From positions 62,001 to 126,000 of the forward strand of contig JAHIVH010000081.1 in the NCBI GenBank assembly GCA_018816735.1: 64,000 nt of DNA, in the 5' to 3' direction. Every line of letters starts with the position of its first letter. The stretch's first letter is position 1. The notes beneath the pieces are model-generated. The model worked only from the letters and a program-made list of their open reading frames with translations. It was not told the origin of the DNA and searched no databases. Position numbers and translations under genes: made by a program. This document shows positions 10,305 through 38,674 of the stretch, one piece after another. The DNA is from Pseudomonadota bacterium (GTDB lineage: Bacteria > Desulfobacterota > Desulfobacteria > Desulfobacterales > JAHIVH01).

Positions 10305-10394
10305 TTCCGATTATGTTTGATCCATAGACCTAAATCGGTTAAAGGATAAGGTCTGTATAAATCGATTCATGGGATCAAAAATAGAGGATTAAAC

Positions 10395-11207
10395 ATGCAT
10401 CAACGTGATTATTACACGGTTTTAAATATTGAAAAATCAGCCAGCGCGTCTGAAATTAAAAACGCCTACAGAGAACTGGCGTTAAAATATCATCCGGACA
10501 GAAACAGGGACAACCCTGATTCCCTTGAAAAAATGAAGGAAATAAATGAGGCATATGCCGTCCTCTCAAATCCTTCCAGGCGGAAAGAATACGACTCCCT
10601 GAAAACCCAGCTCGGGGCGGGCGCCCATGACCGGTTCCGACAGAGTTATTCTGATCAGGATATCTTTAAAGGATCTGATATCAATCATATTATTGAAGAA
10701 ATGGCCAAAGCATTCGGTTTGAGAGGATTTGATGATCTTTTCAAGGATGTTTATGGAAAAAATTACCATTCCTTTGAATTCAACAAAAAAGGCGTTTATG
10801 CAAAAGGGTTTTTCTTTTCCTCAGGTTTCCCTGGGAACAAAAACAGACAAGGTCTACCTGAATTCAAGCCATCTGGTGTATCTGGAAAAATTGTCCGTTA
10901 TCTTCTGAATAAAATGACAGGGGGCAAACTTCCTGAAAAGGGAAATGATCGCCATGATAGTATCCGCATCGAAAAGGAAATGGCGAAAAAGGGCGGCCCA
11001 TATGCCTATTATTTAAAAGAAAAATCAAAAAAACTGGTTATCACCGTGCCGCCAGGCATCAGAGAAGGTCAAAAAATAAGGCTGTCCGGAATGGGTGAAG
11101 ACGGTAAAAATGAAGGTGCACCCGGTGACCTTTATCTGAAAGTTCAGTTTGACAAACCGGCAATGAAATGGCTTAAGGATGTGACCGGTCATTTATTTAA
11201 AAAATAA
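10395..11207 (+). CDS. DnaJ-like J-domain protein without zinc finger
   Basis: The protein has 270 residues. The first ~70 form a J domain: DYYTVLNIEKSASASEIKNA, the essential HPD in LKYHPDRN, and ends with NPSRRKEYD. The middle is Phe/Gly/Lys-rich low-complexity sequence. Near the C-terminus VPPGIREGQKIRLSGMGEDG and GAPGDLYLKVQF match the end of the DnaJ substrate-binding domain, but no CxxCxGxG repeats are present. It should stimulate DnaK ATPase as a CbpA-like or type III co-chaperone. It is preceded by GAGG and sits alone between metabolic genes; no DnaK or GrpE is nearby. The client is unknown. Confidence 0.85.
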   Translation: MHQRDYYTVLNIEKSASASEIKNAYRELALKYHPDRNRDNPDSLEKMKEINEAYAVLSNPSRRKEYDSLKTQLGAGAHDRFRQSYSDQDIFKGSDINHIIEEMAKAFGLRGFDDLFKDVYGKNYHSFEFNKKGVYAKGFFFSSGFPGNKNRQGLPEFKPSGVSGKIVRYLLNKMTGGKLPEKGNDRHDSIRIEKEMAKKGGPYAYYLKEKSKKLVITVPPGIREGQKIRLSGMGEDGKNEGAPGDLYLKVQFDKPAMKWLKDVTGHLFKK

Positions 11208-11299
11208 CAGGCATGGTGTCTGATGCGATATTCACATTCAACCATTATCCCTGTGTTCAATTGATATCTGGTAGAGGTTTATCTGCGAGGAGGAATTAA

Positions 11300-13204: not shown

Positions 13205-13560
13205 AAGCGCTGTTAATTGTCGCCCACGGCAGCCGGAAAAAAGAATCAAATGACGAGATTATCCGTCTTTCGGCGGAACTTGAAAAAAAGGCACGCGATA
13301 CCTTTGATATTGTGGCATCTGCTTTTATTCAGTTTGCCACGCCACTCGTACCGGAAGTGATTGATCAGTTGGTGGCAAAAGGTGTTACGGAATTGATTGT
13401 CGTGCCTTATTTTATTGCCGCAGGAAGTCATGTGGTTAACGATATCCCTCGGTTAATCGATGATGCCCGCAAAAAATACAATCACATTGCCATTTCACTG
13501 ACCCCTCATTTGGGAAAATTTGACGGGATGAAAGAACTTATTCTTTCGGGAGTAAGATGA
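13201..13560 (+). CDS. Small CbiX-type sirohydrochlorin chelatase
   Basis: The 119-residue length matches the short CbiX/SirB-like class II chelatase half. It begins MKALLIVAHGSR with the metal-binding His of the AHGSR motif and has the second conserved His in VPYFIAAGSHVVNDIP. It should insert Co2+ or Fe2+ into sirohydrochlorin for cobalamin or siroheme synthesis, probably as a dimer. It overlaps the CoA-transferase gene by ATGA and the next gene by ATGA, so the three are translationally coupled. Why a chelatase should be coupled to acyl-CoA enzymes is unclear; a related alpha/beta binding role other than chelation is possible. Confidence 0.75.
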   Translation: MKALLIVAHGSRKKESNDEIIRLSAELEKKARDTFDIVASAFIQFATPLVPEVIDQLVAKGVTELIVVPYFIAAGSHVVNDIPRLIDDARKKYNHIAISLTPHLGKFDGMKELILSGVR

Positions 13561-13982
13561 ACGAAATACTGCAAATCATAGGTCAGGAAGAACATTTTGT
13601 TAGCCATATGTATGAAAAGTATCAGGGTAGGGTTCCTGTCAGTATGGCTTATGATCAGAATTGTTCCGAACTATTTCCCTTTGTTTTTGAAGATGTCGAC
13701 GGACATGCCATTGGCATTATTGCCATAGCAGTTGTCACAGAAAACGAAAAGGAACGCGTGCATATTTACCATATCAGTTCATTCAGACAAAAGATAGGAA
13801 ACGGAAGCATCATGCTTGTTGAACTTTGCCGCCAGGCAGATATATTTAATGTTATTCTCAGTTTAAGCCCGATTTCAATGGGAAATGGCAAAGATTTTCA
13901 AATCAGTTACGGGAAACTGAAGGCCTGGTATGCCACGTTTGGATTTTCAGGAGAGGGACAGCTACGGCGGGAACCGGTTTAA
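13557..13982 (+). CDS. Small GNAT-like protein
   Basis: The protein has 141 residues. It is weakly similar in pattern to GNAT acetyltransferases: a central beta strand region (IGIIAIAVVTENEKERVHIY), then RQKIGNGSIMLVELCRQAD, where an acetyl-CoA loop and helix would fall, and a terminal WYATFGFSGEGQLRR that resembles the usual FYxKxGF ending. The acceptor-loop pattern is degenerate. Start overlaps the previous stop (ATGA). The fold assignment is tentative; acting with the GNAT domain of the 11300 protein is only a guess from context. Confidence 0.55.
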   Translation: MNEILQIIGQEEHFVSHMYEKYQGRVPVSMAYDQNCSELFPFVFEDVDGHAIGIIAIAVVTENEKERVHIYHISSFRQKIGNGSIMLVELCRQADIFNVILSLSPISMGNGKDFQISYGKLKAWYATFGFSGEGQLRREPV

Positions 13983-14005
13983 ACTATTTAAAAGAGGAGG
14001 GACGT

Positions 14006-14899
14006 TTGAAAGTAATCGACAGCCATTTTCACATATATAAAAATGAACAGACGGGGATACTTGCTCAGGGCGGCGTTCCCATGGCCGGATTTACAGGTGC
14101 TTTGGGAGAAGCCATTCCCATTGTTGACAGGAGCCCTCTTGACAGAATTGTTGCTGTGGCCGTGATCCCTATTGCCTCAATGAGAAAAGCCGCCATGGCA
14201 AAATGGCCTGCAGATTTGAAGGCATCTGAAAAAACAGAAAATAAACTATTGCTTGAAGAGAAATTGCAATCCCGCCTGTCCGGTTTTAATGAATGGCTGC
14301 TTTCCGTTGGCCGGGAACATGAGTACATAACTCCTGTGATCGCGGCTGACCCAACTGTTGATGAAACCTTTATGACAGAACATATCCTGTCTGCAATGAA
14401 AAGCGATGCGATTACGGCATTGAAAATTCATCCTGCAGCAAATTCCACCTGTCCTTCAGACAAGGGATATTATCCTGTCTACGAGCTGGCCCAGGAAAAT
14501 GACTTGACTGTCATTTCACATGGCGGTCTATCCGGAGATGACCTGGAAGGAAAATTCTGCACGCCAGAGCATTTCCAAGCCGTCTGCCGGGATTTCCCCA
14601 GATTGAAGATCGTTGTTGCGCATCTGTGTTATCCACATAGCAACCGCCTTATGGACCTTTTTGAATCATGCCCGAATCTTTTTACCGATTTGTCTTTTGT
14701 TTTAGGGAATGCGCCATATGATGACGGCACCCTCGTTAAAATGATCAACAGGTTTGGTCCGGACAGAGTGCTTTATGGGAGCGATTATCCCTGGTCTGAC
14801 CCGGAAAAGGATATTTTGCGGTTTATGAGACTCAAACTTACGGACAGCGAACAGGAAAGAATCGTATACCGGAATGCCGTTGAGTTGTTCGGGGTTTGA
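14006..14899 (+). CDS. Amidohydrolase-2 family TIM-barrel metal-dependent hydrolase
   Basis: The protein has 297 residues and uses a TTG start at 14006, justified by GAGGAGGG 5 nt upstream. Metal ligands of the family are visible: IDSHFHIY near the N-terminus, ISHGGLSG and VVAHLCYPH in the middle, and YGSDYPWSDP near the end. Family members hydrolyse amides or decarboxylate aromatic or beta-keto acids. It is 24 bp after the GNAT-like gene, so probably in the same transcript. No substrate can be named. Confidence 0.8.
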   Translation: MKVIDSHFHIYKNEQTGILAQGGVPMAGFTGALGEAIPIVDRSPLDRIVAVAVIPIASMRKAAMAKWPADLKASEKTENKLLLEEKLQSRLSGFNEWLLSVGREHEYITPVIAADPTVDETFMTEHILSAMKSDAITALKIHPAANSTCPSDKGYYPVYELAQENDLTVISHGGLSGDDLEGKFCTPEHFQAVCRDFPRLKIVVAHLCYPHSNRLMDLFESCPNLFTDLSFVLGNAPYDDGTLVKMINRFGPDRVLYGSDYPWSDPEKDILRFMRLKLTDSEQERIVYRNAVELFGV

Positions 14900-14929
14900 T
14901 TTTTTTGACCCAAAGCGGAGGCCAAATCA

Positions 14930-16411
14930 ATGCCGAAAAAAATGATTTCATCATTGACCCGACGGGACTTCCTGAAAATTTCAAGCCTGTGTTCTGTTGC
15001 TGCAATAATCTATCCAGTGAGCGTGTTGGGAGATATGTCTTTTTTGCCTGTCGAGCGAAACGATCTGGCTGTTTTTCCATTCACGGAGATGACGAGCGGG
15101 TTTAAAGGAACACTGCTTAATATCGCACAGGTATCAGATGTCCATATCATTGATCCGGATCATTATTTAAGGGCAAAAAATCTGAAGCTTTTAGGCCTTG
15201 TTGAACTAGGCCCGCTTCTCGATGCCATTCCGAGCACGTCAAGAGTTCAGGATCATCTTACCGGTCTTGCCTGGGATGCCGTCATCCGGTCTGTTAACTC
15301 AGAAAACGCGATAGAACCTTTTGACTTTCTGATTACAACCGGTGACCATACCGATACGGACCTGGAACATGAGCTGAGATGGTTTGTGGAAATCGCAGAT
15401 GGCATCGTTCCTTCCGATTACAAAGACAGATTACGGCATGGCCTGGTTGCCGATATCTCCCCCCAGGGACTTGATGTTCCCTGGTATGCTGCTTTAGGAA
15501 ACCACGATGTGGAGTACATGGGCACGTTTAACAGTGAATTGCTCATAGGAAAGCTGATTGACACGCTGGGGTCTCCTGATGCCAAAGCCCTATCCGATCT
15601 GAATGAATCGATAGATATCTACCAGGATACGCTCACAACGCCTGATTGGCATGGATTCAAGGCCATGCCGGCGGATTTTCCCAAAGAAGGATATTACAGT
15701 TTTGACCCCAATCCGATAGTTCATTGCATTGTCCTCAACACAGCAAATTTCAATTCAGAAGCAGGTGTCAAACTCGAAACCATGTCCCTGGGCGTGGTGG
15801 ATAAAGTTCAGTTCGCATGGATGAAGGAAGACATCGAAGCCCATTTTGATAAGCTCTGCCTTGTTTTTTCCCATCACAGCCCGAAAGAGTTCAGCACGCT
15901 TGTGGGTAACACATCCAATTCAAAATTTGTCGGCAGGAAAGCATTCTCAGATACGCTCTGCGCTTATGAAAATGTGATCGCCCACATAAACGGTCATACG
16001 CATTTTAACCGTATCGAAGCCATTAAAACAGAAACAGGCGGCTATTGGGACATCAACACCTGTTCCATTATCGAGTATCCCCAGGAATGGCGGAAAATTA
16101 AACTCTTCGACAATAACAATGGTACGGGAACACTGTCTTGCCGGATGATTCAACATCACGATCAGGAATGCATCGATACCGCACTCTCAGATCCGGATGC
16201 CTACCCGGATATGAGAAGAGGTACTGAACGCGACAGGGATGTAACGCTTTTATTCAACATACCTGTTTCCGTCAAAGAAAATATTGATGCAAATTACAAC
16301 CGCCTGCAGGCATCCGGAAAGGATAAATTCGGCAATTCTGCAATCGATTCCGATGCGAAGACAGCAGAGGGGGAAGGTAAAGCCGCTTGCTTCATAGGTA
16401 CAGCAGTTTAA
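14930..16411 (+). CDS. Tat-exported calcineurin-like metallophosphoesterase
   Basis: The protein has 493 residues. The N-terminus has a twin-arginine signal (SLTRRDFLKISSLCSVAAII), so it should be folded with its metals in the cytoplasm and exported. All metallophosphoesterase motifs are present in order: VSDVHIID, TTGDHTDTD, ALGNHDVE, FSHHSP and NGHTHFN. The dinuclear centre should hydrolyse a phosphomonoester or diester in the periplasm. Length and the insertions between motifs resemble TIGR03767-like secreted enzymes of unknown substrate. GGAGG precedes the ATG; the gene follows the amidohydrolase by 30 bp. Confidence 0.87.
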   Translation: MPKKMISSLTRRDFLKISSLCSVAAIIYPVSVLGDMSFLPVERNDLAVFPFTEMTSGFKGTLLNIAQVSDVHIIDPDHYLRAKNLKLLGLVELGPLLDAIPSTSRVQDHLTGLAWDAVIRSVNSENAIEPFDFLITTGDHTDTDLEHELRWFVEIADGIVPSDYKDRLRHGLVADISPQGLDVPWYAALGNHDVEYMGTFNSELLIGKLIDTLGSPDAKALSDLNESIDIYQDTLTTPDWHGFKAMPADFPKEGYYSFDPNPIVHCIVLNTANFNSEAGVKLETMSLGVVDKVQFAWMKEDIEAHFDKLCLVFSHHSPKEFSTLVGNTSNSKFVGRKAFSDTLCAYENVIAHINGHTHFNRIEAIKTETGGYWDINTCSIIEYPQEWRKIKLFDNNNGTGTLSCRMIQHHDQECIDTALSDPDAYPDMRRGTERDRDVTLLFNIPVSVKENIDANYNRLQASGKDKFGNSAIDSDAKTAEGEGKAACFIGTAV

Positions 16412-16601
16412 AATGATGGGCACCTAAAAGCGCTTCCAATTTTCAAATGTGAATTTTTGTGCAAGGCCAAGGAAAGCAAGCTGTTGCGCCGAGACCTATT
16501 GGACTGCATCGCACAGGCAACAGCGCCGATTGACGAAGATATTGTGCAAAAAAACCATTTGCGGATGGAAACCAAATCAGTTTCAAGATAGGTAATATAA
16601 A

Positions 16602-17345
16602 ATGACAATAAAAATAATTGGCGTAGGGTATGGCCGCACAGGTACGATGTCAACTCAGGTTGCCCTGAATATTCTGGGATTTCCCTGTTACCATATGATC
16701 GAAGTCATTAAGAATAAAGCCAATAGAAAACATGTTGATTTTTGGCTGAATGTTGCCAGATCACTGCCAGGAAGCCAGCACGATTGGCAGGAAGTATTTG
16801 CAAACTATAATGCGACAATTGATAATCCCGGTGCCTGTGTCTGGCAAGAGTTGATGGAGGCGTATCCTGAGGCTAAGATTCTTCTGACGATGCACCCCAT
16901 AGGCGCTGAAGAATGGTACGAAAGCACCATGGATACCATTTATTTTTCCGAAGCCAAATGGCAGTTCAAGGTAATTGGATTTATTTCACCGTTTATACGA
17001 AAACTTGGAGAAATGTCGCACAGATTAGTTTGGCAACGAAACCATAAAGGGACAATGCAGGATCGCGATTCAGCGATAGCTGACTATCATAGGCATATCG
17101 AAGAAATAAAGACCAAGGTTCCGCCCGAAAATCTACTGATCTTTACTGCCGATCAGGGATGGGGGCCTCTTTGTCAATTCCTTGGTGTTGACGCCCCTGA
17201 AACTGAATTCCCAAAAGTGAATGACCGCACACAAATTAAAAGGATGAATGCCGGTATGATAATAGCTGCTTACGGTATACTGGCGATAGGTGTGGCTGCT
17301 TTCGTGGGTTTTTTCCGGACGATTGGCTGGTTAATGAGTCAATAG
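16602..17345 (+). CDS. Sulfotransferase-like P-loop protein with C-terminal membrane segment
   Basis: The protein has 247 residues. It starts with IIGVGYGRTGTMSTQ, the 5'-phosphosulfate-binding loop (GxGRTGT) of the sulfotransferase family that includes Sulfotransfer_4 proteins, and continues with LNILGFPCYHM. A middle region ILLTMHP and the late QGWGPLCQFLG also fit. The last ~30 residues form one hydrophobic helix (IIAAYGILAIGVAAFVGFF), which would anchor it to the membrane. It should transfer sulfate from PAPS to a hydroxyl of an unknown acceptor. It lies upstream of the SRPBCC/KAS III/ThDP genes, separated by a 445-bp gap, so co-transcription is unsure. The 190 bp before it hold no gene I can recognise. 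Confidence 0.72.
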   Translation: MTIKIIGVGYGRTGTMSTQVALNILGFPCYHMIEVIKNKANRKHVDFWLNVARSLPGSQHDWQEVFANYNATIDNPGACVWQELMEAYPEAKILLTMHPIGAEEWYESTMDTIYFSEAKWQFKVIGFISPFIRKLGEMSHRLVWQRNHKGTMQDRDSAIADYHRHIEEIKTKVPPENLLIFTADQGWGPLCQFLGVDAPETEFPKVNDRTQIKRMNAGMIIAAYGILAIGVAAFVGFFRTIGWLMSQ

Positions 17346-17428
17346 ATGAGCTGACGTGTTATTCAGCGAAAATATGCCAGTTATTCATATACAGATTAAA
17401 TACTGGATTAAATTCATGTGATCACCAC

Positions 17429-17444
17429 GAGACATTAATGTCTC
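17429..17444. repeat. Perfect 16-bp palindrome in the 17346-17790 gap
   Basis: GAGACATTAATGTCTC is fully self-complementary. It could be an operator or the hairpin of a weak terminator for the sulfotransferase-like gene; no T-tract follows. The rest of the 445-bp gap is non-coding as far as I can see, apart from a small hairpin (TCCGGT-AAAA-ACCGGA, 17678-17693). Confidence 0.45.
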
Positions 17445-17790
17445 AAATATTCGCAAAAACACCCGTGCAACCCCAATTAATCAATCAGGACGATTTGATT
17501 CCTTTGCGGATTGGCAAAAATGTAAACGAATGATATTGTGTCGTATAATTCTATACACGCTAAGCATTTCTGCACCGTCAAACACACGCGATTCTGTGAT
17601 GCTGGCTCTGGTATGAATATTGTAATTGATGATGCTTCAAACTGATTTATTGAGGATTGCATAAAAACTATCGCCACTCCGGTAAAAACCGGAAAACATG
17701 ATATTCATATATGCATGAATAATCTTGGGTGGCGCTAATGCCTGCAACTGAGTTTCCGGCTGTGGCCTGAAGACAAAAAAAGGAGGGAAT

Positions 17791-23288: not shown

Positions 23289-25259
23289 TCAATTTTTATT
23301 TTTGAGTTTTTTATGCTGATCGATGATCTGGTCTACCACTTTGGGATCGGCAAGCGTCGATGTGTCTCCCAGACTGTCAAATTCATCAGTGGCGATTTTT
23401 CTTAAAATTCGGCGCATGATTTTGCCGGAACGTGTTTTGGGAAGAGAAGAAGAAAAATTGATAATATCAGGCACTGCGATTGCTCCGATTTCTTTCCGGA
23501 CGTGTTGCTTGAGTGCTTTCAGTAATTCATCAGTTGCCGCCACATTAACATTCAGGGTGACATAAGCATAGATTCCCTGTCCTTTGATGTTATGCGGATA
23601 GCCGATAACCGCTGCTTCCGCCACATCCATATGGCTGACAAGCGCACTTTCCACTTCTGCGGTGCCCATGCGGTGGCCGGAGACATTGATGACATCATCC
23701 ACACGGCCTGTGATCCAGTAATAACCATCTTCATCACGCCTGCACCCATCACCCGAGAAGTAATATCCGTCGTACATGATGAAATAGGTTTGTTCGAATC
23801 TCCGGTGGTCGCCATAAACGGTTCTCATCTGGCCGGGCCAGGGTTCTTTAATGGCAAGAATGCCTTTTGCCGGGCCGTCCTGAACCTTCCCTTCTTCATT
23901 GAGAACAACCGGAATGACTGAGAAAAAGGGCAGGGAAGCAGAGCCGGGTTTCTGGTCAATAGCGTAAGGTAGTGGTGTGATCAATACCCCGCCTGTTTCC
24001 GTTTGCCACCAGGTATCGACAATCGGGCATTTTTCCTTTCCGACATGGGTAAAATACCATTTCCATGCTTCAGGATTTATCGGTTCACCGACAGAACCAA
24101 GCAATCTCAAGCTTGACAGATCATACGTGTTGACCCACGATTCGCCCTGGGCCATCAGTGCTCGTATGGCCGTAGGGGCAGTATAAAACTGGTTGACCCT
24201 CCATTTGTCGACAACAGCCCAGAATCGTCCCGGATCAGGATACGTGGGAATGCCTTCAAACATGATGCTCGTTGCTCCCTGGGACAGCGGACCGTATACA
24301 ATATAGCTGTGGCCGGTCACCCAACCGATATCGGCGGTGCACCAGTAGATATCACCCTCATGATAATCAAAAATATACCGGAAGGTAATACCGGTATAGA
24401 CCATGTACCCGCCAACCGTGTGCTGGACACCTTTGGGTTTGCCTGTTGAGCCGGACGTGTATAGAATAAAAAGGGGATCTTCAGCATCCATCCATTCTAC
24501 CGGACAATCCGGGCTGGCATTCGCCATGGCATCATGCCACCAGAAATCCCTTTCTTTTTCCATGGTAACCGGTGTCCCGGTTCGTTTGACAACAAAACAG
24601 CTTTGCACATTATGCCCGTTCCCTTTACAGATCGACATGGCTGTGTCTGCATTTTCTTTAAGAGGGATTGCTTTCTCACCGCGCATGACACCATCTGTGG
24701 TGATGAGAATTTTGCATTGACTGTCAAGGATTCTGTCTGCAAGCGCTTCTGCAGAAAAACCGCCAAAAACGATCGAATGAATGGCCCCAATTCGGGCTGA
24801 TGCCATCATGGAAATGGCAAGTTCCGGGACCATGGGCATATATATGGAAATGCGATCTCCTTTTTTGACACCCTGCTTTTTGAGAATATTCGCGAATTTG
24901 CAGACCATTTCATGAAGTTCACGGTAAGTGATTTTTTTATCTTCAGACGGATCGTTGCCTTCCCAGATGAGGGCTGTCTGATCGCCGCGTGTTTCAAGAT
25001 GCCGGTCAAGGCAATTATAGGTGATGTTGGTCTTTCCGCCTTCAAACCACTTTATATATACAGGGCCTTTTGAGAGGGTATAATTATAGTCTCTAACTTT
25101 TTCCCATTTTTTTTCCCAGTAGAACTGATCCGCCATTTCTGCCCAGAATGTTTCAGGGTCATTGACAGACCTATCATACATGGCTTGATATTCATCCATG
25201 CTTTTCATCCAGGCATTTTTTCGAAATTCATCCGGAGCACGAAACTTAAATTCAGTCAT
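23289..25259 (-). CDS. acsA: AMP-forming acetyl-CoA synthetase
   Basis: At 656 residues this is the standard Acs length. The adenylate-forming signature [13 protein letters not shown], the WWQTETGG motif and the C-terminal [15 protein letters not shown] are all present; the last holds the Lys that Pat-type acetyltransferases modify and CobB-type deacetylases restore. It activates acetate with ATP to acetyl-AMP and then acetyl-CoA. AAAGGAT precedes the ATG. The two GNAT-fused acyl-CoA enzymes elsewhere in the window are possible regulators of this Lys (inference). The gene appears monocistronic, with its own promoter and a downstream hairpin. Confidence 0.96.
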
Positions 25260-25512: not shown

Positions 25513-27396
25513 TCATGGATAGATGCTAAAGACAACCCGGCATAAATCCAACAACTTGTTGGGTGAACCGCTTTGAAGGATTTTGATTTTTCCTTTTTTG
25601 AGGCCGGCTTTTTCAACAAGTATATTCGTGACCATTTTGGCTGATACATTGGTTTTTTCCATGTATACACTCAAATGATCGGTTTTAACCCAGTCACCGA
25701 TGAAAAACAGATTGTCAACCGGTGATTGAATGGGGGGTCTTATGGCTTCATATCCAACGAGTTGAGGCGAATAGGTATCCCATCTGTTGACATAATAGTC
25801 TGTCGGATCCGGAAGATCAGGCATGACGATTTTCAATTCTTCATGAACCAGTCTCGCGATCATGTCATCACTCATGTTTTCCACTCTTTTGGTATCCGCA
25901 ATCTGGGTTTCGATAACGGCGATTTTATCGTTTACATAGTCTTGCTGATAGTCGGGGACAACGACCTGACTGCAGGCTTTTTTGCCGTTTAGAATGCCAT
26001 CATGCGCCCAGTTCAGAGTGACGCCGAGAAGCTTGAAACCTGAAGGCATGAAGTCCATAAAACCGGGAAACCGTTTCTCCCAGGACGTGCATTTCGAATA
26101 CCAGAGGTTGACGGGAAATACACTTGTCTTTTCCAGTTTCATGATGTTGTCAAAATAAGAAGACCCGGTGAGATTGGATTTGGCGATCACCTGTTTCGCT
26201 CCGGGGCTGTCCATGGCAACCACATAGTAATCTGCAGTGTACTCTTTGGGCGGACCTGAAGTGAGCGCAAATATCTGGCTTGAAGGGGCGCCACAAACCG
26301 GGCATCGGTTTGGTTTTGACGGTGCACTGAATACAGAACCGCATATTCTGCATTTCCACATTTTACTACCGTCAACACTGCCCTCATCTCCTGCAAGCAC
26401 GCTCTTGATTTTCCCGTTGACATGATTGACCCGAATGACCGGTGTGTTGTAGATGATTTTCCCGCCTCTGGACTTGATATATTGCTCGATAGGCGCAACA
26501 TAGGTTTCACCGGGAGGATGCATAAAAATATCGATGCACATATCATCATAAGAACCACCCGCAAGGTTTAGCAGCATGAGTGTGTATAGTGCGGAAGTAT
26601 TGTCTATATGATCAAACATGGCCATCTCGGACAATGGACCGAAGAGCCGATAAATCAGCTTATCCGGCATGCCTATGGATCTGGCCCACTCAGGGAAGGA
26701 AATGCTGTCCAGATACATTCGCTGGTTGACATCATCGAAATCAAAGGACATCATTTTTAAAAGATATTTTCCGATACGTTCCTCTTCAGCTGAAAATCTG
26801 GACAAATCATTCAGAAGATTGTAGCATCGCTGTATTTCTCCAAACATGCCGGGCAGGTTAGGCGGAGGAAACCCTATGGTGTTTTCCTGGCCGTCCTTGT
26901 TCAGGAAATTGTACATGGTCGTGTCTTCCCGTGGAATTTTATACAACCTGTATCCATGTCTTCCCATAAATTCTCTCAGGTTATTGTAAAATCCCCACAC
27001 CGCATGTGCGCCATGGTCTCTTGGATATCCCTTGAAATCCGGGTCGTTTTCCGGGGGGACGCCAAATGAGGGATCTCTCCAGCTTTTCAATTTGCCGCCC
27101 AGCATGTTTGATTTTTCAATCACTGTGACATCAAACCCCCTGTCCAAAAGCTCACAGGCCGCATGCATGCCTCCGAAACCACCGCCCAGAATCAATACGG
27201 ATTTTCCGTTTGGCGGAAGATTGACCTTGTTTTCAGGAATATCCGGATACTCCTCATCGAGCACGCTCTTGCCTGAACACCCAGGAAGTGCCATGCTTGC
27301 CGCACCTGCTGCCGCTGCTGCCGCGTTTGTTTTGATAAATTGACGCCGTGACAGTGACGTTTCAGAGTTGGGTGATTTTTTAATATCTTCAGGCAT
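25513..27396 (-). CDS. Tat-exported FAD oxidoreductase with inserted rubredoxin-like domain
   Basis: The protein has 627 residues. The N-terminus SLSRRQFIKTN plus an Ala-rich helix is a Tat signal; it ends MALPGCSG, which could also be a lipobox. A Rossmann FAD motif follows (VLILGGGFGGMHAACELL, then VIEKSNMLGGKLKSW) in a phytoene-desaturase/amine-oxidase-like fold. Near residues 345-380 a rubredoxin-like unit is inserted (WKCRICGSVF and NRCPVCGAPSSQIF). The end has NLFFIGDWVKTDH. It is the last gene of the Rieske/cytochrome operon, with AAGGAGGT before its ATG. It should exchange electrons between FAD and the periplasmic cytochrome via the inserted FeS4-like centre; the oxidised or reduced substrate is unknown. 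Confidence 0.82.
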   Translation of the reverse strand: MPEDIKKSPNSETSLSRRQFIKTNAAAAAAGAASMALPGCSGKSVLDEEYPDIPENKVNLPPNGKSVLILGGGFGGMHAACELLDRGFDVTVIEKSNMLGGKLKSWRDPSFGVPPENDPDFKGYPRDHGAHAVWGFYNNLREFMGRHGYRLYKIPREDTTMYNFLNKDGQENTIGFPPPNLPGMFGEIQRCYNLLNDLSRFSAEEERIGKYLLKMMSFDFDDVNQRMYLDSISFPEWARSIGMPDKLIYRLFGPLSEMAMFDHIDNTSALYTLMLLNLAGGSYDDMCIDIFMHPPGETYVAPIEQYIKSRGGKIIYNTPVIRVNHVNGKIKSVLAGDEGSVDGSKMWKCRICGSVFSAPSKPNRCPVCGAPSSQIFALTSGPPKEYTADYYVVAMDSPGAKQVIAKSNLTGSSYFDNIMKLEKTSVFPVNLWYSKCTSWEKRFPGFMDFMPSGFKLLGVTLNWAHDGILNGKKACSQVVVPDYQQDYVNDKIAVIETQIADTKRVENMSDDMIARLVHEELKIVMPDLPDPTDYYVNRWDTYSPQLVGYEAIRPPIQSPVDNLFFIGDWVKTDHLSVYMEKTNVSAKMVTNILVEKAGLKKGKIKILQSGSPNKLLDLCRVVFSIYP

Positions 27397-27446
27397 ATGT
27401 TATACCTCCTTGAAAGAAGATGGTGTTTTAGGTGAAACAGTATCCG

Positions 27447-27776
27447 TTATTCATTAACAAAAAGCTTGACAGACAGATCTTCAATCTGTTTTTGAATCTG
27501 ATCCACAAGCGTCTGTACTTCGGGCGATTCACTGGTTTCCTTTATCTGGGCCAACGTCACGCTGACATGTTTAAGATCATAGATCGTCCGGGTGTTTTCA
27601 TAGTTGCCTGACCGTTTGATTTGAGGGACCACTCTGTCTGTAATCATCCGGTTAATGGATGTGATCGCCGCATTTTCTGTTGAATACCTTTCCTGAATTG
27701 AAAGAAAAAGTGCTGCGATTGAAAAAATAAAAGCCAGGATAACGATCTTTGATTTCTTTTGATTTTCTTCAGACAT
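27447..27776 (-). CDS. Small single-span membrane protein of the Rieske/cytochrome operon
   Basis: Start chosen at 27776 (MSEENQKK) because GGAGAA lies just upstream; a longer frame starting inside the cytochrome gene is not needed. The 109-residue product has one hydrophobic helix near the N-terminus (IVILAFIFSIAALFLSI) and a polar, probably coiled-coil remainder facing the periplasm. I do not recognise the family. Its place between the multihaem cytochrome and the flavoprotein suggests an assembly or anchoring role in the same complex. Confidence 0.65.
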   Translation of the reverse strand: MSEENQKKSKIVILAFIFSIAALFLSIQERYSTENAAITSINRMITDRVVPQIKRSGNYENTRTIYDLKHVSVTLAQIKETSESPEVQTLVDQIQKQIEDLSVKLFVNE

Positions 27777-27831
27777 TTTTTTCTCCTTTTTTATTGACAT
27801 GGATTGAACACGATACGCCATTGTTGTTTCA

Positions 27832-28650
27832 TTATTTGATTTCACGATTGCTTCCTGAAAAAGGTAGAACAATCATCTGGTAGTATTTAATCAGGATAAG
27901 GCACAGCAAAAGAAAAAGGAGGATCATCATACCCTGAAACAGCCATTTCCCGGGTGCTGTGCCTGACATCTTGTTTTCGATATCCATGAGGGATGCCATC
28001 AGATCATTATTGAGATAATTTAACAATTCTTCAGACATTAACGAATGAAATGAAATTGCAAGATTGGTCCTTGCGTTTGAAAGATCCCGGATGGGAACGG
28101 TTACAGGGAAGTGCTCCTCTGAACGGACGGCAATTGTTTCTTCTATCAATTTAATCTTTGACTGAATTCTATGCACAACACTTTCCAGTGGAATAACTTT
28201 CTCAAATGAATGGCATGTCGCGCAATTCTTTTGATTGATAACAGACAGGTCTGCCTTACCGGTATTGTGATAGCCATGACAGGTGACACAGGTTGCCTCG
28301 CAAATTTTTTTAGTTTTATGGATAAATTTTTTACGGCTTTTCATGTTTTTATATTCGTTGATATGACATTTGCCGCACATATCATTGATTTCCTGACCGT
28401 CAGGAAGGCCCATATGTCCCTTTTTGAAATCCATGGCAAGAAATTTGTTGCCCCCATGACAGTCTGCACATCCGGTATCTGGTCCGAAGTGAACGCTTTT
28501 CTTCCAGTTGACGGCAGAAATACCTTTTCCAGGGGCCTCACAGGTCAGATGGCAGCGTACACAATTGTCCTGCAGCAGAAAAAGTGAATCAGACGCCTGT
28601 GTATGGTCGGCAAAACAAAATAGAATTGATATAAGCACGACGCGTTTCAT
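27832..28650 (-). CDS. Five-haem c-type cytochrome with C-terminal membrane anchor
   Basis: The protein has 272 residues. An N-terminal signal peptide (MKRVVLISILFCFADHTQAS) is followed by five CxxCH haem sites: CVRCH, CADCH, CGKCH, CVTCH and CATCH. A helix near residues 235-257 (WLFQGMMILLFLLLCLILI) anchors it to the membrane, leaving the haems in the periplasm. The ATG directly follows the stop of the cytochrome b gene (TAA-ATG), so production is coupled. It should accept electrons from the Rieske protein in place of cytochrome c1/f and pass them to the flavoprotein or other periplasmic carriers. Confidence 0.9.
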   Translation of the reverse strand: MKRVVLISILFCFADHTQASDSLFLLQDNCVRCHLTCEAPGKGISAVNWKKSVHFGPDTGCADCHGGNKFLAMDFKKGHMGLPDGQEINDMCGKCHINEYKNMKSRKKFIHKTKKICEATCVTCHGYHNTGKADLSVINQKNCATCHSFEKVIPLESVVHRIQSKIKLIEETIAVRSEEHFPVTVPIRDLSNARTNLAISFHSLMSEELLNYLNNDLMASLMDIENKMSGTAPGKWLFQGMMILLFLLLCLILIKYYQMIVLPFSGSNREIK

Positions 28651-29910
28651 TTATGATAAAAAACCCCATATGGTAAATATGATGAATGAAAAAATTGATG
28701 TTTTTACCAGCAAAATGTATAGAGGACGTTTTTCAGGATCTCTGGGCCCTTTTTTATCAATCACCGGCAGAAATACCAAGACAAGATAAATGGCAAGCAG
28801 TGAGAGGAGCCCTGTAAATTCTGAAGGCATGATTTTCAATACCTGATAGGGACCCATAAAATACCAGTCCGGTTTGATACGATCCGGTGTGATAAAAGGA
28901 TCTGCGGGTATTTTGTCTTCTATGAGCATGCCATGAAAAAAGAATACGCCTGCAAATAGAATCATGATTGTAACCACAGTCGCTGACATCCGGTGGAGCA
29001 TATTGTGGGGGAAAATAGGCTCTGTTTTCATGGGGCCGGACTGGGATTTCAGTGTAATGGATTGGGTCGGGCACTTATCAAGGCAGAGACGGCAGGCATT
29101 GCAGAGTCCGCCATCAACTTCGGGCATTGATTTGCTGCCGGTACCCGACATCATGCGTATGGCCGAAAACGGACATATCCTTTCGCATACGCCGCACCCG
29201 ACACATGTTTCAGGGTTGATTCCGGCGATCATCTCCGGCGGAGCCGCCACGCCGGTCTGCCAGACTTTCTTGATGTGATACCACATGAAAACAATTATCC
29301 CTGCAGGGAGAAAGATGATATGAAGCATGTAAAAAATGGAAAGGGTCGGCCCGGCCACTTCTTTGCCACCTCTCAGGAGATAAACAATCAAATCACCTGC
29401 AAGGGGTACCGTCCGGATAGCCTCAGTTCCAATGACGCAGGCCCAGTAGGATTGTTGCGACCACGGCAACAGGTATCCTGAAAATCCGGTAACCAGCATA
29501 AGCGTCATCAGAACAGAACCTGTATACCATTGATTCTTCCTTGGCCCTCTGTGGGCACTGACATACATAATTCTGAACATGTGGATGAAAAGAACAAGAA
29601 CAATCAATTTGGCATTGATTGTATGAAGATTGACAAACAAGAATCCGTTCGGGATTTCATTTTTTATGGCAATGACAGATTCAAAGGCTTTTAAAGGATT
29701 CGGAGAATAGTAAAAAAGAAGGAGAAGCCCGGTTACCACCTGAATGAGAATAAGAAAAACCGATATCGTGCCTGTATAGGACAGAACATCCCAAAATCTG
29801 TCCGGAGCAACAGTGGCATCATTTAAAACGCTATGTTTGAGTTCATCTGATTTCCGGATATTATTTTTAAATCCATCAACCAGCCGGGTTGGGAAAAATC
29901 TGTTCATCAT
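28651..29910 (-). CDS. Cytochrome b (b6-type) with inserted 2x[4Fe-4S] ferredoxin domain
   Basis: The protein has 419 residues. The first four helices form the dihaem cytochrome b core: His pairs lie 14 apart (LHTINAKLIVLVLFIH) and 15 apart (HIIFLPAGIIVFMWYH), the b6-type spacing. A ferredoxin unit follows, CVGCGVCERICPFSAI and CNACRLCLDKCPTQSI, and then a subunit-IV-like part with three helices and PDWYFMGPYQVLK, equivalent to the Qo-site PEWY. In cytochrome b topology the loop after helix D is cytoplasmic, so the ferredoxin domain should face the cytoplasm beside the quinone-reduction site. No Cys occurs before helix C, so a covalent haem cn as in b6f is unlikely. It is coupled to the Rieske and multihaem cytochrome genes. 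Confidence 0.9.
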   Translation of the reverse strand: MMNRFFPTRLVDGFKNNIRKSDELKHSVLNDATVAPDRFWDVLSYTGTISVFLILIQVVTGLLLLFYYSPNPLKAFESVIAIKNEIPNGFLFVNLHTINAKLIVLVLFIHMFRIMYVSAHRGPRKNQWYTGSVLMTLMLVTGFSGYLLPWSQQSYWACVIGTEAIRTVPLAGDLIVYLLRGGKEVAGPTLSIFYMLHIIFLPAGIIVFMWYHIKKVWQTGVAAPPEMIAGINPETCVGCGVCERICPFSAIRMMSGTGSKSMPEVDGGLCNACRLCLDKCPTQSITLKSQSGPMKTEPIFPHNMLHRMSATVVTIMILFAGVFFFHGMLIEDKIPADPFITPDRIKPDWYFMGPYQVLKIMPSEFTGLLSLLAIYLVLVFLPVIDKKGPRDPEKRPLYILLVKTSIFSFIIFTIWGFLS

Positions 29911-29939
29911 TCGCCTTACGTTGATTTTTTTTCAAGTCC

Positions 29940-30455
29940 TCAGGCAACCATTATTTTCACAAACGTTCCTGAAACTTCTGTTTTATATTCCTTGATAGCT
30001 GCGGGTGGCGGACCGGCAACCACTTCACCATCTTCATTATATATCCCTCCATGGCAGGGACAGATAAAACGCTTGCCTGACGGGTCCCATTTGACCAGAC
30101 AGCCAAGGTGTGTACAGGTGGCATTAAATATCCGGTAATTATCCCCACGGTTTACAGCGATTACAGGTATATCTGAAAGCGACATGAATGCAGATTCACC
30201 GTCTGGCAGTTTACTCAGGTCAATCTCAAAATGGCCATCTGATGTTTTAACAGGGAGGAAGGCATTATTTTTTCTTTTTGCCCTGTTTGTTTCCGCATCA
30301 AAAATACCTGCATAGCCTCTCTTTGATTGAATGTGAATTTGCTTTGGTGAAAAATAATGGATGACAGAATATAAAAGGCTACCTGATCCAATGGTGAAAA
30401 GGGCGGCAATTGTTTTTTTAATAAATGTTCGTCGTTCGTCTGTTTTCGATTCCAT
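29940..30455 (-). CDS. Rieske [2Fe-2S] protein of a bc-type quinol oxidoreductase
   Basis: Start chosen at 30455 (MESKTDERR), 8 nt after GGGAG; earlier ATGs at 30461 and 30488 are possible. The 171-residue protein has a Tat signal-anchor (ERRTFIKKTIAALFTIGSG) and then the Rieske fold. Ligand motifs CTHLGC and CPCHGG bind the [2Fe-2S] cluster through two Cys and two His. It should take the first electron from menaquinol at the Qo site of the adjacent cytochrome b and swing to the multihaem cytochrome. It is the first gene of the five-gene operon 30455-25513. Confidence 0.92.
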   Translation of the reverse strand: MESKTDERRTFIKKTIAALFTIGSGSLLYSVIHYFSPKQIHIQSKRGYAGIFDAETNRAKRKNNAFLPVKTSDGHFEIDLSKLPDGESAFMSLSDIPVIAVNRGDNYRIFNATCTHLGCLVKWDPSGKRFICPCHGGIYNEDGEVVAGPPPAAIKEYKTEVSGTFVKIMVA

Positions 30456-30508
30456 CTGCATTTTCTCCCAAATCGAAAAGGCATGCATGTTTGTTTTTAA
30501 TTATGTCG

Positions 30509-30549
30509 ATAGTCGACTATATACAATAATATCTGGGACCGTTTGTCAA
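30509..30549 (-). promoter_or_regulatory. Promoter and palindromic operator of the Rieske operon
   Basis: On the minus strand TTGACA (30549-30544) and TTGTAT (30526-30521) are spaced 17 bp. Directly next to the -10 box lies the 12-bp perfect palindrome ATAGTCGACTAT (30509-30520), well placed to be an operator for a repressor near the transcription start. The cognate regulator is not identifiable here. Confidence 0.45.
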
Positions 30550-30588
30550 TAAAAATATTAACAGGATTTTATAATTTGACACAAAAGC

Positions 30589-30641: not shown

Positions 30642-30967
30642 TTATGCGGCCAGCGAGTAAAATATTTCTGCCGGAGTCTGGACAGAATTATTCCCGTTTT
30701 CCATCTGGCCTTTCCGGATCATCCGGACAAGCTCAATCCCCCTGAGCGTCACGCTCGCCGAATAAAATTCCTTGAATCCGAGCATGGGCCTTGTAATTCG
30801 CTTGATTCCGCGATGGCAATTGTTACACCACATTATTCAGATACTTCACTTGCCGAATTTCAATATCGGTGCTGTTCTCTTTATCCACAGCCCTGTACAA
30901 ATAGCACCATTCTCCTTTTACCTTTATATATGTCTCATCCATACGCCAGCCGGTTCCGATTTCCTGA
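30642..30967 (-). pseudogene. IS6-family transposase remnant
   Basis: On the minus strand TGWRMDETYIKVKGEWCYLY and RAVDKENST match the first catalytic block of IS6/IS26-type DDE transposases. After an abrupt join the sequence continues DIEIRQVKYLNNVV, then a TAA and a one-base frame change, then HRGIKRITRPMLGFKEF and GIELVRMIRKGQM, the normal C-terminus. About 75 residues containing the second Asp are missing, as is the whole N-terminal domain. The nonsense codon stands where the family has a conserved Glu (VVEQDHR). The element is clearly dead. Confidence 0.82.
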
Positions 30968-31074
30968 AGAGACAGACGCGCTTGTCAGGTCAGAAGACTT
31001 TTTAAATGCAAAAAGTAGTTGTCCCGATGAAAATTCTAAGGAGAAACCGCCATGTACCGTCTATTCCATTTTAA

Positions 31075-31330
31075 ACGTATACCGGCATGGTCGTTCAGTC
31101 TGGCACACTTATGGAAAACGTCCGGGTCTATCTCTTCACCGAAACCGGCAGTTACCTTTCTGTCTATGGCAATACGGACGTATCGGGAAAGACATCCTTT
31201 ATCATTCCTGCAGGAAACTAAAAATTCCGCGCAGATTATGATGGGGAAAAATACTGGACGCTTCCGACGTCCATCCCCTCCGGAGAAACCACACCGGTTC
31301 TGATCGAACTCTCCTCCCAACCGGCGGTAA
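31075..31330 (+). pseudogene. Broken fragment of a surface-protein repeat domain
   Basis: In one frame the strand reads YTGMVVQSGTLMENVRVYLF, TETGSYLSVYGNTD, SFIIPAGN, a TAA at 31219-31221, KFRADYDGEKYW and SIPSGETTPVLIELSS. This is the pattern of carboxypeptidase-regulatory-like beta-sandwich repeats in large bacterial surface proteins (NVxVYLFxExGSYLG, NYKFRADYxGxxxWS). The stop replaces an expected Tyr. There is no start codon or partner domain, so only one decayed repeat remains. The gaps on both sides (30613-30641 and 31331-31654) contain no gene I can see. Confidence 0.6.
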
Positions 31331-34618: not shown

Positions 34619-36514
34619 ATGAAAGGCATTTTTAAAAATAGTTTTACAGGGATCATGATAATGGTGGTGGTGATGTCTCTGAACGGTTTTACCGGTTGCG
34701 ACCTGACAAAGGATGCGCCACCCGTCCCCGAACCGGTTAAGGAACGTGCTGCACTTGATTTTACGCAGGCAGACGTGGATGCACTAGTGTCCATGACCCA
34801 GGAAAAGATATTTTTGCCCGCGCCGACCGACAATGGCGACCCGCCTGAAGAGTGTGATTATGTGCATTTCCTGAGATTCAAGTTAAAAGATATTGACTAT
34901 GATCCTGAAGTTCCTTCCACAATGAACAATGTGGATGCATTCCTTTTGGTTGTACCGGGCATTCTCGAAGGCGCAAACGGATTTGAATATTTTGCGCGCA
35001 ATCTGATCTATACTGCGAAAGTGTATAATAATCTCAATCTTGAAGTCTATGCCATGGACAGGCGGGCGAACTGTCTTGAAGACACATCTGCCGAACCCTA
35101 TATCGAACAGATCTATTATGATGGCACCTACAATGGCCAGACCTTTGAAACCATGGATGAAAAGCACGATGCCATTGTGGATCTGGCATTGGGATACTAT
35201 TATTATGGCGAAACATTGCCCAATGGTAAAAAATTTGCCGGATTCCTCAAAAATAAAGATGTGCCCTATCTTTCGGATTTTGGTCTGAAGATGAATACGG
35301 AAAGCATGTTCAAAATCGCCATGACCATGGTTCCTGATTTGGAAGCAAGGCAAAAGAAACTGTTTGTGGGCGGACACTCCATGGGTGGCATGCATACAGC
35401 AGTCTTCGCCGGATGGGATCTGGATGGTGATCTTGCTACACTGGATGATGCCGGCTATATGAATTGCGCAGGATTGTACGCTCTCGATTCTTCGGTTGCG
35501 GCCTATGAAACGATTCGTGATCCGCTGACCAGTGAACTGCCGATTTCGACCATTGCTCTTTTGGATGCCATGGATGAATACACGTACCTTCAGATCGTGG
35601 ATGCGATTCGAAAAGAATGGCTGCCGCCACTTTTACCTTTCCCGTTCTTTGATGCCGAAGTGATGGCCACCACGGAAATGATCGGATATCTGGGTGACTG
35701 GTTTCCGGATCATGAAGCCACCGCTCTTGACGAGATTCCAATGAGCAGTAATCTCAAAGCCACGCTTCAGGTATTGCATTCACGAACACTCAGTCAGTTT
35801 ATCAATGCGAAACCGACAATAAAAGACTTCCGGTATACCAATGAGGCACTGATCGGGGCCTTTTTTGATGATAATTTTGTGCCTGTGGGCATGATTCAGA
35901 CCAGCATGGGGTTCCTGAAAGGTGGCCCGGTGGTTCAAAAAGATTTTCCGTTGCCGTCGGATTTTTCAAAAGCCAATCCTGAGCTGGCAGATAGCATGGG
36001 CATGATGGTGTCTTCGAAAAATATGTTCATCCCTGCAGATGAGGGCGCTGTGGATAAAGAAGGGAACGGGCCGTTATATTCCTGGGCGGATTTTGATGAG
36101 ATCGGGAATGCGGAAGAGCCCGATTTTCAGGATGTCTTTGGCAACATGACTTACACCACCATGGAAAATGAGATTTCCGACATTCATGATTTTGCACGGG
36201 CGTTGCATCAAGGCCCGTCCAATCTGGTTGAATGGTATTTCCCGTTACGTCCGGTGATTGACATGAATACGATTGGTGCATCATGGGCGCATAAGTACGG
36301 GATGAATTATTTCTATGGCGATATGGCCGGTCAAATGCCGATGATCGAACTCGTTCAGGCAAAAGAAGGCGTTTCCGATACAGACGTGAGAAGACAAATC
36401 AAGGGAGCGAACCATATGGACCCTATGTTCATGTCGGCTAATACGTCTTCGCATCGTGAGAATGAAGTCATGCAGCCGTTGATCGATTTCATCATCGAAA
36501 ATAAGGGGGAGTGA
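34619..36514 (+). CDS. Lipoprotein alpha/beta-hydrolase, copy 1 of a tandem pair
   Basis: The protein has 631 residues. A signal peptide ends in the lipobox-like GFTGCDLTKD, so the protein should be lipid-anchored outside the cytoplasm. The hydrolase core has VPGILEGANGFEYFARN, YAMDRRANCLED and the nucleophile elbow FVGGHSMGGMHTAV (Ser at the centre). Near the end GANHMDPMFM supplies the likely catalytic His. The long middle section with several Asp-rich stretches is extra to simple esterases. It is followed after 234 bp by a close paralogue with nearly colinear sequence. The substrate, probably an ester or lipid, is unknown. Confidence 0.8.
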   Translation: MKGIFKNSFTGIMIMVVVMSLNGFTGCDLTKDAPPVPEPVKERAALDFTQADVDALVSMTQEKIFLPAPTDNGDPPEECDYVHFLRFKLKDIDYDPEVPSTMNNVDAFLLVVPGILEGANGFEYFARNLIYTAKVYNNLNLEVYAMDRRANCLEDTSAEPYIEQIYYDGTYNGQTFETMDEKHDAIVDLALGYYYYGETLPNGKKFAGFLKNKDVPYLSDFGLKMNTESMFKIAMTMVPDLEARQKKLFVGGHSMGGMHTAVFAGWDLDGDLATLDDAGYMNCAGLYALDSSVAAYETIRDPLTSELPISTIALLDAMDEYTYLQIVDAIRKEWLPPLLPFPFFDAEVMATTEMIGYLGDWFPDHEATALDEIPMSSNLKATLQVLHSRTLSQFINAKPTIKDFRYTNEALIGAFFDDNFVPVGMIQTSMGFLKGGPVVQKDFPLPSDFSKANPELADSMGMMVSSKNMFIPADEGAVDKEGNGPLYSWADFDEIGNAEEPDFQDVFGNMTYTTMENEISDIHDFARALHQGPSNLVEWYFPLRPVIDMNTIGASWAHKYGMNYFYGDMAGQMPMIELVQAKEGVSDTDVRRQIKGANHMDPMFMSANTSSHRENEVMQPLIDFIIENKGE

Positions 36515-36754
36515 ATGTAATAGGATGATAGGGGGGCTGCTTTTAAAAAAAGCCTTCTATTTTAGCCAGTTACAAGACGTTTCCTTTACTGCCCGCTCTT
36601 TTGAAAGGCGATAGGTACCTTGGCAGGGCTGATGGAAGTAATATATCATTTTAAGGATAATTATTTTTTTGCCAGACAACGATTTCGGGCAAAAAGGGAA
36701 CGGCTTGCAACTGGCTCAACCTATCGATTCATAATTTTTTAAGGAGAGATGATT

Positions 36755-38674
36755 ATGGAATTTCTGAATAAGGGTAAACTGCCAGGTGGTATCATCACCC
36801 TTGTCTGCCTTTTATCTGTGATGGGATTTATGGGGTGTGATCTGTCTAAAAAATTTCCTCCCATACCTGAACCTGCAAAAGAGAGAGCCGCACTTGATTT
36901 TACCCAGAACGATGTTGACGACCTCGTTTCAATGACTCAGGAGAAGATTTATTCTCCTGCACCCGCAGAGCATGGAAATCCGCCTGAAGCATGTGATTAT
37001 ATAAATTTTTTGAGATTTAAACTGAAAAATGTTTCCTACAATCCAGAAGACAGTGTTAGTTCCGAAAACGTGGATGCATTTCTTTTAATGGTCCCTGGAA
37101 TTCTTGAGGGGGCAAATGGATTTGAGTATATAGCAAGAAATTTGATCTATATTGCAAAGGTATACAATCATCTCAATCTGGAAGTATGGGCCATGGATCG
37201 TCGGGCCAACTGCCTTGAAGACACTTCTGCCGAACCTTATCTGGATAATATTTATTATGAAGGGACGTATAACGGTCAAACATATGATACCCTGGAAGAG
37301 AAGCACGACGCCATCGTGGACCTGGCTTTAGGATACTATTATTACAATGAGGCATTACCGGACGGCAAAACCTTTGACGGCTTTCTGAAAAACAAGGATG
37401 TCCCCTATCTGGTTGATTTTGGTTTGAAGATGAACACGGAAAGCATGTTTAAAATCATTCAGACCATGGTGCCTGATCCTGAGGTGAGAAGACAGAAAGT
37501 CTTTGTAGGCGGCCATTCCCTGGGTGGTATTCACACATCGGTATTTGCAGGTTGGGATCTGGATGGGGATCCGGATACGTTGGATGATGCCGGCTATATG
37601 AATTGTGCCGGCCTTTTCGCATTTGATTCTTCAGTGACACCGTCGGCCACGATCGCAGACTCGGTTCTCCAGATGCTGCCCATTTCTACAGCCGTATATC
37701 TGGAAGACATGACAGAAGATGTATATAGCGCGGCGATTCAAGGGTTTGATGATGGCTGGATGCCGCCCCTTCTGCCATTTCCGTTTTTTGATGGCGAAGT
37801 TATGGCGATTACCGAATTTATCGGATATCTTGGGGACTGGTTTCCGGATCACGAATTTACCGCTATTCATCAGATTCCCATGAATGCCAATGTCAGAACA
37901 ACCATACAACTGATGCATTCCAGAACGCTCTGTCAGTTCATGATCCAGAAGCCGTCTATGATGGATTTCAGATATACCTACGAAGCACTGGTTGGCGCTT
38001 TTTTCGACGACAATTTTGCACCTGTGGGGATGATTCAGGCAAGCCTGGGATTCCTGAAGGGAGGACCGGTTGTTAAAAAGGACTTCCCCTTACCTGAGGA
38101 GATCAATGAAACCATTCCGGAGCTGGCAGATATGCTGAGTGCGACTATTGTATCCAAAGATTTATTTATTCCTGCAGACGAAGGCGTGTCAGATAGCGCA
38201 GGTAAAGGCCCGCTCTATTCCTGGGCGGATTTTGACGAAATCGGCAATGCAGATGATCAAAATTTTATGGATATCTATGGAAAAACGACCTATACTACCA
38301 CTGAAAAAGAAATGTCGGATATGCACGATTTCTGCAGAGCACTTCATATCGGCCCATCCAATCTGGTGGAGTGGTACTTCCCGTTCCGTCCGGTTATGGA
38401 TATGATTGCGGCGACATTCTCCTATGGGCCGAAATACGGTCTCAATTTTCTCCATAAGGACATGGTTGGCGTGTTGCCGTCAGTAGAGTTTGTCGGCGGA
38501 AATGGCATATTGAGCACAGGCCCGCTGGGCGATCTGGTTCCTCAGGGAGATTATATCATACCAGGTGCAAATCACATGGATCCCATGTTCATGTCGGCGA
38601 ATACGTCGTCGCATCGGCCAAACGAAGTGATTCAGCCCTTGATCGATTTTATCATTGCAAATTCAGCGGACTGA
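36755..38674 (+). CDS. Lipoprotein alpha/beta-hydrolase, copy 2 of a tandem pair
   Basis: Start chosen at 36755 (MEFLNKG): AAGGAG at 36741-36746 is well spaced for it, but only two bases from the ATG at 36749. The 639-residue protein has a lipobox-like GFMGCDLSKK, the FVGGHSLGGIHTSV nucleophile elbow and GANHMDPMF with the likely catalytic His. It aligns with copy 1 along its whole length, including LDFTQ, MDRRANCLEDTSAEPY and the shared C-terminus MFMSANTSSHR. The copies have diverged at the gene level, especially around residues 295-330 and 575-605. A rho-independent terminator ends the pair. Confidence 0.8.
   Translation: MEFLNKGKLPGGIITLVCLLSVMGFMGCDLSKKFPPIPEPAKERAALDFTQNDVDDLVSMTQEKIYSPAPAEHGNPPEACDYINFLRFKLKNVSYNPEDSVSSENVDAFLLMVPGILEGANGFEYIARNLIYIAKVYNHLNLEVWAMDRRANCLEDTSAEPYLDNIYYEGTYNGQTYDTLEEKHDAIVDLALGYYYYNEALPDGKTFDGFLKNKDVPYLVDFGLKMNTESMFKIIQTMVPDPEVRRQKVFVGGHSLGGIHTSVFAGWDLDGDPDTLDDAGYMNCAGLFAFDSSVTPSATIADSVLQMLPISTAVYLEDMTEDVYSAAIQGFDDGWMPPLLPFPFFDGEVMAITEFIGYLGDWFPDHEFTAIHQIPMNANVRTTIQLMHSRTLCQFMIQKPSMMDFRYTYEALVGAFFDDNFAPVGMIQASLGFLKGGPVVKKDFPLPEEINETIPELADMLSATIVSKDLFIPADEGVSDSAGKGPLYSWADFDEIGNADDQNFMDIYGKTTYTTTEKEMSDMHDFCRALHIGPSNLVEWYFPFRPVMDMIAATFSYGPKYGLNFLHKDMVGVLPSVEFVGGNGILSTGPLGDLVPQGDYIIPGANHMDPMFMSANTSSHRPNEVIQPLIDFIIANSAD

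Follow-up and report, generated by a model that had tools for sequence, protein, structure and literature searches.

A conserved Rieske/cytochrome b gene unit with a fused ferredoxin domain and an exported flavo-rubredoxin protein in Desulfobacterales

The window, a 64,000-nucleotide stretch of a Desulfobacterales genome, carries five closely packed genes at positions 25513–30455 of the minus strand, all open and intact. The gaps between them, in the order Rieske protein to flavoprotein, are about 30, 0, 55 and 50 bp. An earlier note had described five packed genes here from the sequence, and that description holds, with the domains confirmed by Pfam. The features are as follows.

30500..30552, minus strand: probable promoter, predicted from sequence matches; a TTGACA box and an AT-rich −10 region, with the palindrome ATAGTCGACTAT overlapping the promoter (sequence and palindrome scan)
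29940..30455, minus strand: Rieske [2Fe-2S] protein; alternative start at 30488 (PF00355, alignment of relatives)
28651..29910, minus strand: cytochrome b, with a b6-like half, a 2x[4Fe-4S] insert and a subunit-IV-like half (Pfam/NCBIfam, alignment)
27832..28650, minus strand: five-haem cytochrome c with a signal peptide and a C-terminal membrane anchor (five CXXCH, one hydrophobic segment)
27447..27776, minus strand: small protein with a single N-terminal transmembrane helix and a conserved C-terminal tail (sequence, alignment)
25513..27396, minus strand: FAD protein exported by the Tat route; its sequence resembles phytoene desaturase and contains a rubredoxin-like insert (Pfam, alignment)

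Just upstream of the operon, a degenerate stretch at 30642–31320 of the minus strand resembles, by eye, the terminal part of an IS6-type transposase (WCNNCHRGIKRITRPMLGFKEFYSA...). A gene for an AMP-forming acetyl-CoA synthetase (23289–25259) lies on the same strand 253 bp downstream of the unit and does not adjoin it in the relatives examined. Elsewhere in the window, positions 34619–38674 encode two neighbouring long proteins of 631 and 641 residues with near-identical starts (GCDLTKDAPPVPEPVKERAALDFTQADVD and GCDLSKKFPPIPEPAKERAALDFTQNDVD) and no Pfam matches; they are probably tandem duplicate lipoproteins.

The cytochrome b is a fusion. Pfam recognizes the N- and C-terminal Cytochrome_B domains on either side of a Fer4 dicluster at residues 229–290, and the profiles put this insert at the junction of the two halves: the b6 profile is matched up to 222/223 and the subunit-IV match begins at 28/160, with the dicluster in between. 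The cluster cysteines are residues 236/239/242/246 and 270/273/276/280, and the haem b ligands are H96, H110, H197 and H212, with the 14/15 spacing of the b6 type. All eight ferredoxin cysteines and all four haem b histidines are invariant across the seven genomes that carry the gene; the Qo motif reads PDWY, and PEWY in genome G110. Judged by these residues, the Qo site is of the menaquinol type, and ligands are present for two b haems. In known b6f structures, the b6/subunit-IV junction sits on the inner, cytoplasmic side of the membrane, a topology that would place the ferredoxin insert on that side as well. Because H212, a ligand of haem bH, is separated from the first cluster cysteine, C236, by 24 residues, the inner clusters should, with this topology, lie close to haem bH. 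The haem cn (ci) cysteine near the b6 N terminus is missing and is replaced by Tyr, Phe, His or Gln in all seven sequences; the other b6 of the same genome retains the haem cn motif FCLGG. That b6, with its haem cn cysteine kept, belongs to a split cytochrome b6 and subunit IV set with the genome's second Rieske protein (G000:C82:70000-89000, 8714-17714), which lies within a nitrate-reductase-like molybdopterin oxidoreductase operon. AlphaFold2 runs on the flavoprotein and on the cytochrome b from two-sequence input gave poor models (pLDDT 32 and 41).

The Rieske protein matches PF00355 over the cut-off (E 5.9e-12) and has an N-terminal anchor/RR motif and the cluster motifs CTHLGC...CPCHGG. 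Both CTHxGC and CPCHG are kept in six Rieske sequences, and in all six proteins compared the potential-raising serine is a glycine (CPCHGG). Mutational work cited in PMC12954380 makes this serine worth about 130 mV. The substitution argues for a Rieske protein of lower potential here and against forward bifurcation of the anammox type.

The cytochrome c matches multihaem cytochrome c families in Pfam. Its five CXXCH motifs are kept in six sequences, and its one hydrophobic segment, residues 233–266, forms the predicted C-terminal anchor. No sequence match to cytochrome c1 or f was obtained for it, and the anchored pentahaem protein is predicted to stand in their place. Because just four further histidines are conserved, at least one of the five haems can have no conserved second histidine. 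The small protein begins at 27776 behind an AAGGAG site, and searches of Pfam and NCBIfam returned no match for it.

In the flavoprotein, Pfam recognizes Amino_oxidase/NAD_binding_8, TAT_signal and RUBY_RBDX, the last at 33.8 bits versus a cut-off of 26.5 and with CxxCG/CPxCG present; the rubredoxin-like insert spans residues 347–371. Across the six full-length flavoproteins, neither the twin arginines nor Cys40 nor any of the four rubredoxin cysteines varies. Since Cys40 follows the Tat signal, the protein may be a lipoprotein, with an imperfect lipobox (LPGC here, LKAC and MRAC in two relatives). Among solved structures, plant phytoene desaturase (5mog, E 6e-16) is the closest in sequence. 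The likeness to plant-type phytoene desaturase and HpnE covers residues 66–341 and the C-terminal FAD motif, whereas Tat export and the rubredoxin-like insert, which breaks the phytoene desaturase fold after the best-matching stretch, set the protein apart. Its scores also fall far under the family cut-offs (HpnE, 94 of 283 bits; PDS, 70 of 569 bits), and that of zeta-carotene desaturase is likewise far from reached. The carrier genomes differ from the setting of those enzymes in a further respect, in that squalene/phytoene synthase (PF00494) is missing from all seven, whereas the same search was positive in 7 of 14 control genomes. A role in carotenoid or hopanoid synthesis was rejected on this absence, and a C30/C40 isoprenoid that the cells make themselves through such a synthase is thereby excluded as the substrate.

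The five genes are one real conserved unit, as the earlier note had proposed. In a first survey of 146 relatives, the flavoprotein occurred in three, the same three that have a full-length ferredoxin-type cytochrome b. Two samples of 389 genomes, drawn at order and class level and apparently largely one and the same set, gave the cytochrome b in seven genomes (order level: G000, G001, G110, G540, G608, G557 and G587) and the flavoprotein in seven (class level), exactly the same ones. In a phylum sample of 395 genomes, both were found only in the window's own genome, G000. No genome of the 389- and 395-genome samples had either gene alone, and the sampling covered one phylum. The seven carriers span three families (f1, f67 and f70), including four of nine species of f67 and one of three of f70. 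The order Rieske, cytochrome b, cytochrome c, small protein, flavoprotein is identical in G000, G110, G540 and G608; it is also kept in G001, where a contig end cuts the Rieske gene, and in G587, where the flavoprotein gene is split over two contigs. The order is thus conserved in six of the seven carriers, and the possibility that the genes are not conserved together is answered by their co-occurrence in the same seven genomes. Conservation across three families places the arrangement far above chance. In the seventh carrier, G557, the bc genes are on one contig and the flavoprotein, preceded by a gene that matches GDSL hydrolases weakly, is on another, so that the two halves are probably separable. 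A single-sequence scan of genome contigs had as its sole match a Desulfobacterales MAG of the same genus, DeMMO2_31, and the search for plasmid-borne relatives gave matches of only 23–27%.

Between families, the flavoprotein is 62–67% identical, compared with 47–52% for cytochrome b, 31–40% for cytochrome c, 31–49% for the Rieske protein and 33–53% for the small protein. As the best conserved of the five, it is the most constrained part, which suggests that it has one specific substrate.

The accessory neighbours vary among genomes, and none is present in the window. A short-chain dehydrogenase (SDR) is linked to the unit in G110 and G587 (57% identity to each other), a 2-hydroxyacyl-CoA dehydratase/benzoyl-CoA reductase-type gene lies directly downstream in G110 and G557, and TetR regulators are linked in G110, G540 and G608. 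Together these neighbours, although not constant, suggest an inducible catabolic role. Neither enzyme was accepted as a core member: each is linked in two of the seven carriers, the other five having distant SDR paralogues of at most 36% identity and a dehydratase-type homologue, about 50% identical, at some other place in the genome. The dehydratase-type protein was retained as no more than a hint. G110 also has a region (C4:110000-129000) with several clustered 2-hydroxyacyl-CoA dehydratase/benzoyl-CoA reductase-type subunits and activase-like genes.

Compared with known systems, the unit is a variant Rieske/cytochrome b complex. It shares with cytochromes b6f and bc1 the Rieske motifs, the four spaced haem b ligands, the PDWY/PEWY Qo motif, the b6 and subunit-IV halves and an anchored c-type cytochrome on the outer side. 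Unlike b6f and bc1, it joins the two halves by a 2x[4Fe-4S] domain, lacks the haem cn cysteine, has a pentahaem cytochrome in place of c1 or f, and includes a flavo-rubredoxin partner. The Rieske/cytochrome b complexes of the anammox bacterium Kuenenia (Kustd1480-1485 and Kuste4569-4574) combine the same core with outer multihaem cytochromes c and an inner Fe-S electron path through Fe-S reductases (PMC12954380). They have a separate FAD/NAD(P) reductase subunit and serine-containing Rieske proteins above +300 mV (PMC12954380), whereas the conserved units here encode no inner-side FAD/NAD(P) reductase, only the fused 2x[4Fe-4S] domain, and have glycine at the serine position. The Geobacter ext cluster likewise brings together a Rieske protein (ExtO), a cytochrome b (ExtP) and multihaem Ext cytochromes (PMC5877670). 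Among the named cytochrome b families, ExtP scores best for ours (NF040969, 180.5 bits, below the cut-off of 290), but at 23 kDa it is too short for both halves and the insert, and the cluster as published includes a porin and a rhodanese but lacks a flavoprotein (PMC5877670). The interpretation put forward in the earlier note is supported in part. Multihaem c (Geobacter ext) and inner Fe-S reductases (anammox) each have precedent elsewhere; the open-access papers searched contained no description of a cytochrome b with a fused ferredoxin domain that is paired with an exported flavo-rubredoxin enzyme of its own.

Our main reading, to which we give a probability of about one half, is that the five proteins would form a Rieske/cytochrome b system in which menaquinone, cytosolic ferredoxin and a periplasmic flavoenzyme exchange electrons. 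The topology indicated by sequence and homology has the ferredoxin domain inside and the haems c and the flavoprotein outside. The flavoenzyme would act on one specific, probably hydrophobic, periplasmic substrate, and electrons would move between its Fe(Cys)4 site, the pentahaem cytochrome and the Rieske centre. On the inside, the clusters would connect soluble ferredoxin electrically with haem bH or else with the Qi site, a task in which they would replace the missing haem cn.

The direction of electron flow is less certain. In the favoured direction, the enzyme would oxidize a substrate whose potential, about 0 mV, is too positive for menaquinone. One electron from this substrate, arriving via the Rieske protein, and one low-potential electron from reduced ferredoxin, arriving via the b haems, would meet at the Qo site to give menaquinol. 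The proton-motive force would also contribute, and such a Q cycle run backwards would amount to electron confurcation. Textbook values place menaquinone at about −70 mV, ferredoxin at about −400 mV and C–C desaturation near 0 mV. Reduction of ferredoxin from menaquinol with an organic acceptor would be uphill and opposed by the membrane potential, whereas the reverse would be downhill. By thermodynamic reasoning only, the direction that we favour is thus one in which the substrate is oxidized and ferredoxin assists in reducing menaquinone. The full proposal, a quinone-based electron-confurcating complex in which ferredoxin and the outer flavoenzyme jointly reduce menaquinone through a backward-running core, is put forward tentatively.

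The main rival is forward anaerobic respiration, in which menaquinol, with ferredoxin feeding in from the inside too, would send electrons through the Rieske protein, the pentahaem cytochrome and the rubredoxin site to a flavoenzyme that reduces a periplasmic C=C bond or similar group. The anatomy fits equally well, the relatives of phytoene desaturase include reductive enzymes such as HpnE, and exported multihaem-flavin reductases are a common design. Passing electrons from menaquinol to an acceptor at about 0 mV, however, would leave little energy for a Q cycle, the neighbours in some relatives look catabolic, and an acceptor for such a respiration is not known. We consider substrate reduction a possible but doubtful outcome.

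A further explanation is that co-regulation, without any electrical contact, is all that links the bc complex to the flavoprotein, and that both the insert and the rubredoxin-like knuckle have structural or regulatory roles. The G557 flavoprotein does lie on a contig without bc genes, and the knuckle could be a zinc-binding, structural site, as similar CxxC/CxxC knuckles in other proteins bind zinc. The strict co-occurrence in seven genomes, the tight gene order and the invariant cluster cysteines make this explanation improbable. Quinol bifurcation of the anammox type, in which a high-potential periplasmic acceptor would receive one electron while ferredoxin or NAD(P) would receive the other by way of the b haems and the Fe-S clusters inside, has its precedent in the Kuenenia pairing of outer multihaem c and inner Fe-S reductases on such a core (PMC12954380), but is very improbable here, as it requires a strong oxidant and a Rieske protein above +300 mV, the serine is glycine in all six proteins compared, and the conserved units have no NAD(P) reductase subunit.

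Textbook Rieske/cytochrome b complexes pump protons and carry out quinone chemistry on either side of the membrane. If our main reading is correct, this core would have been re-plumbed to connect a third, low-potential electron pool; if the confurcation proposal holds as well, strict anaerobes could use substrates that are too weakly reducing for menaquinone. With this system, the idea that anaerobes confurcate electrons at a quinone becomes testable, and the best-conserved enzyme of the set points to a periplasmic oxidoreduction.
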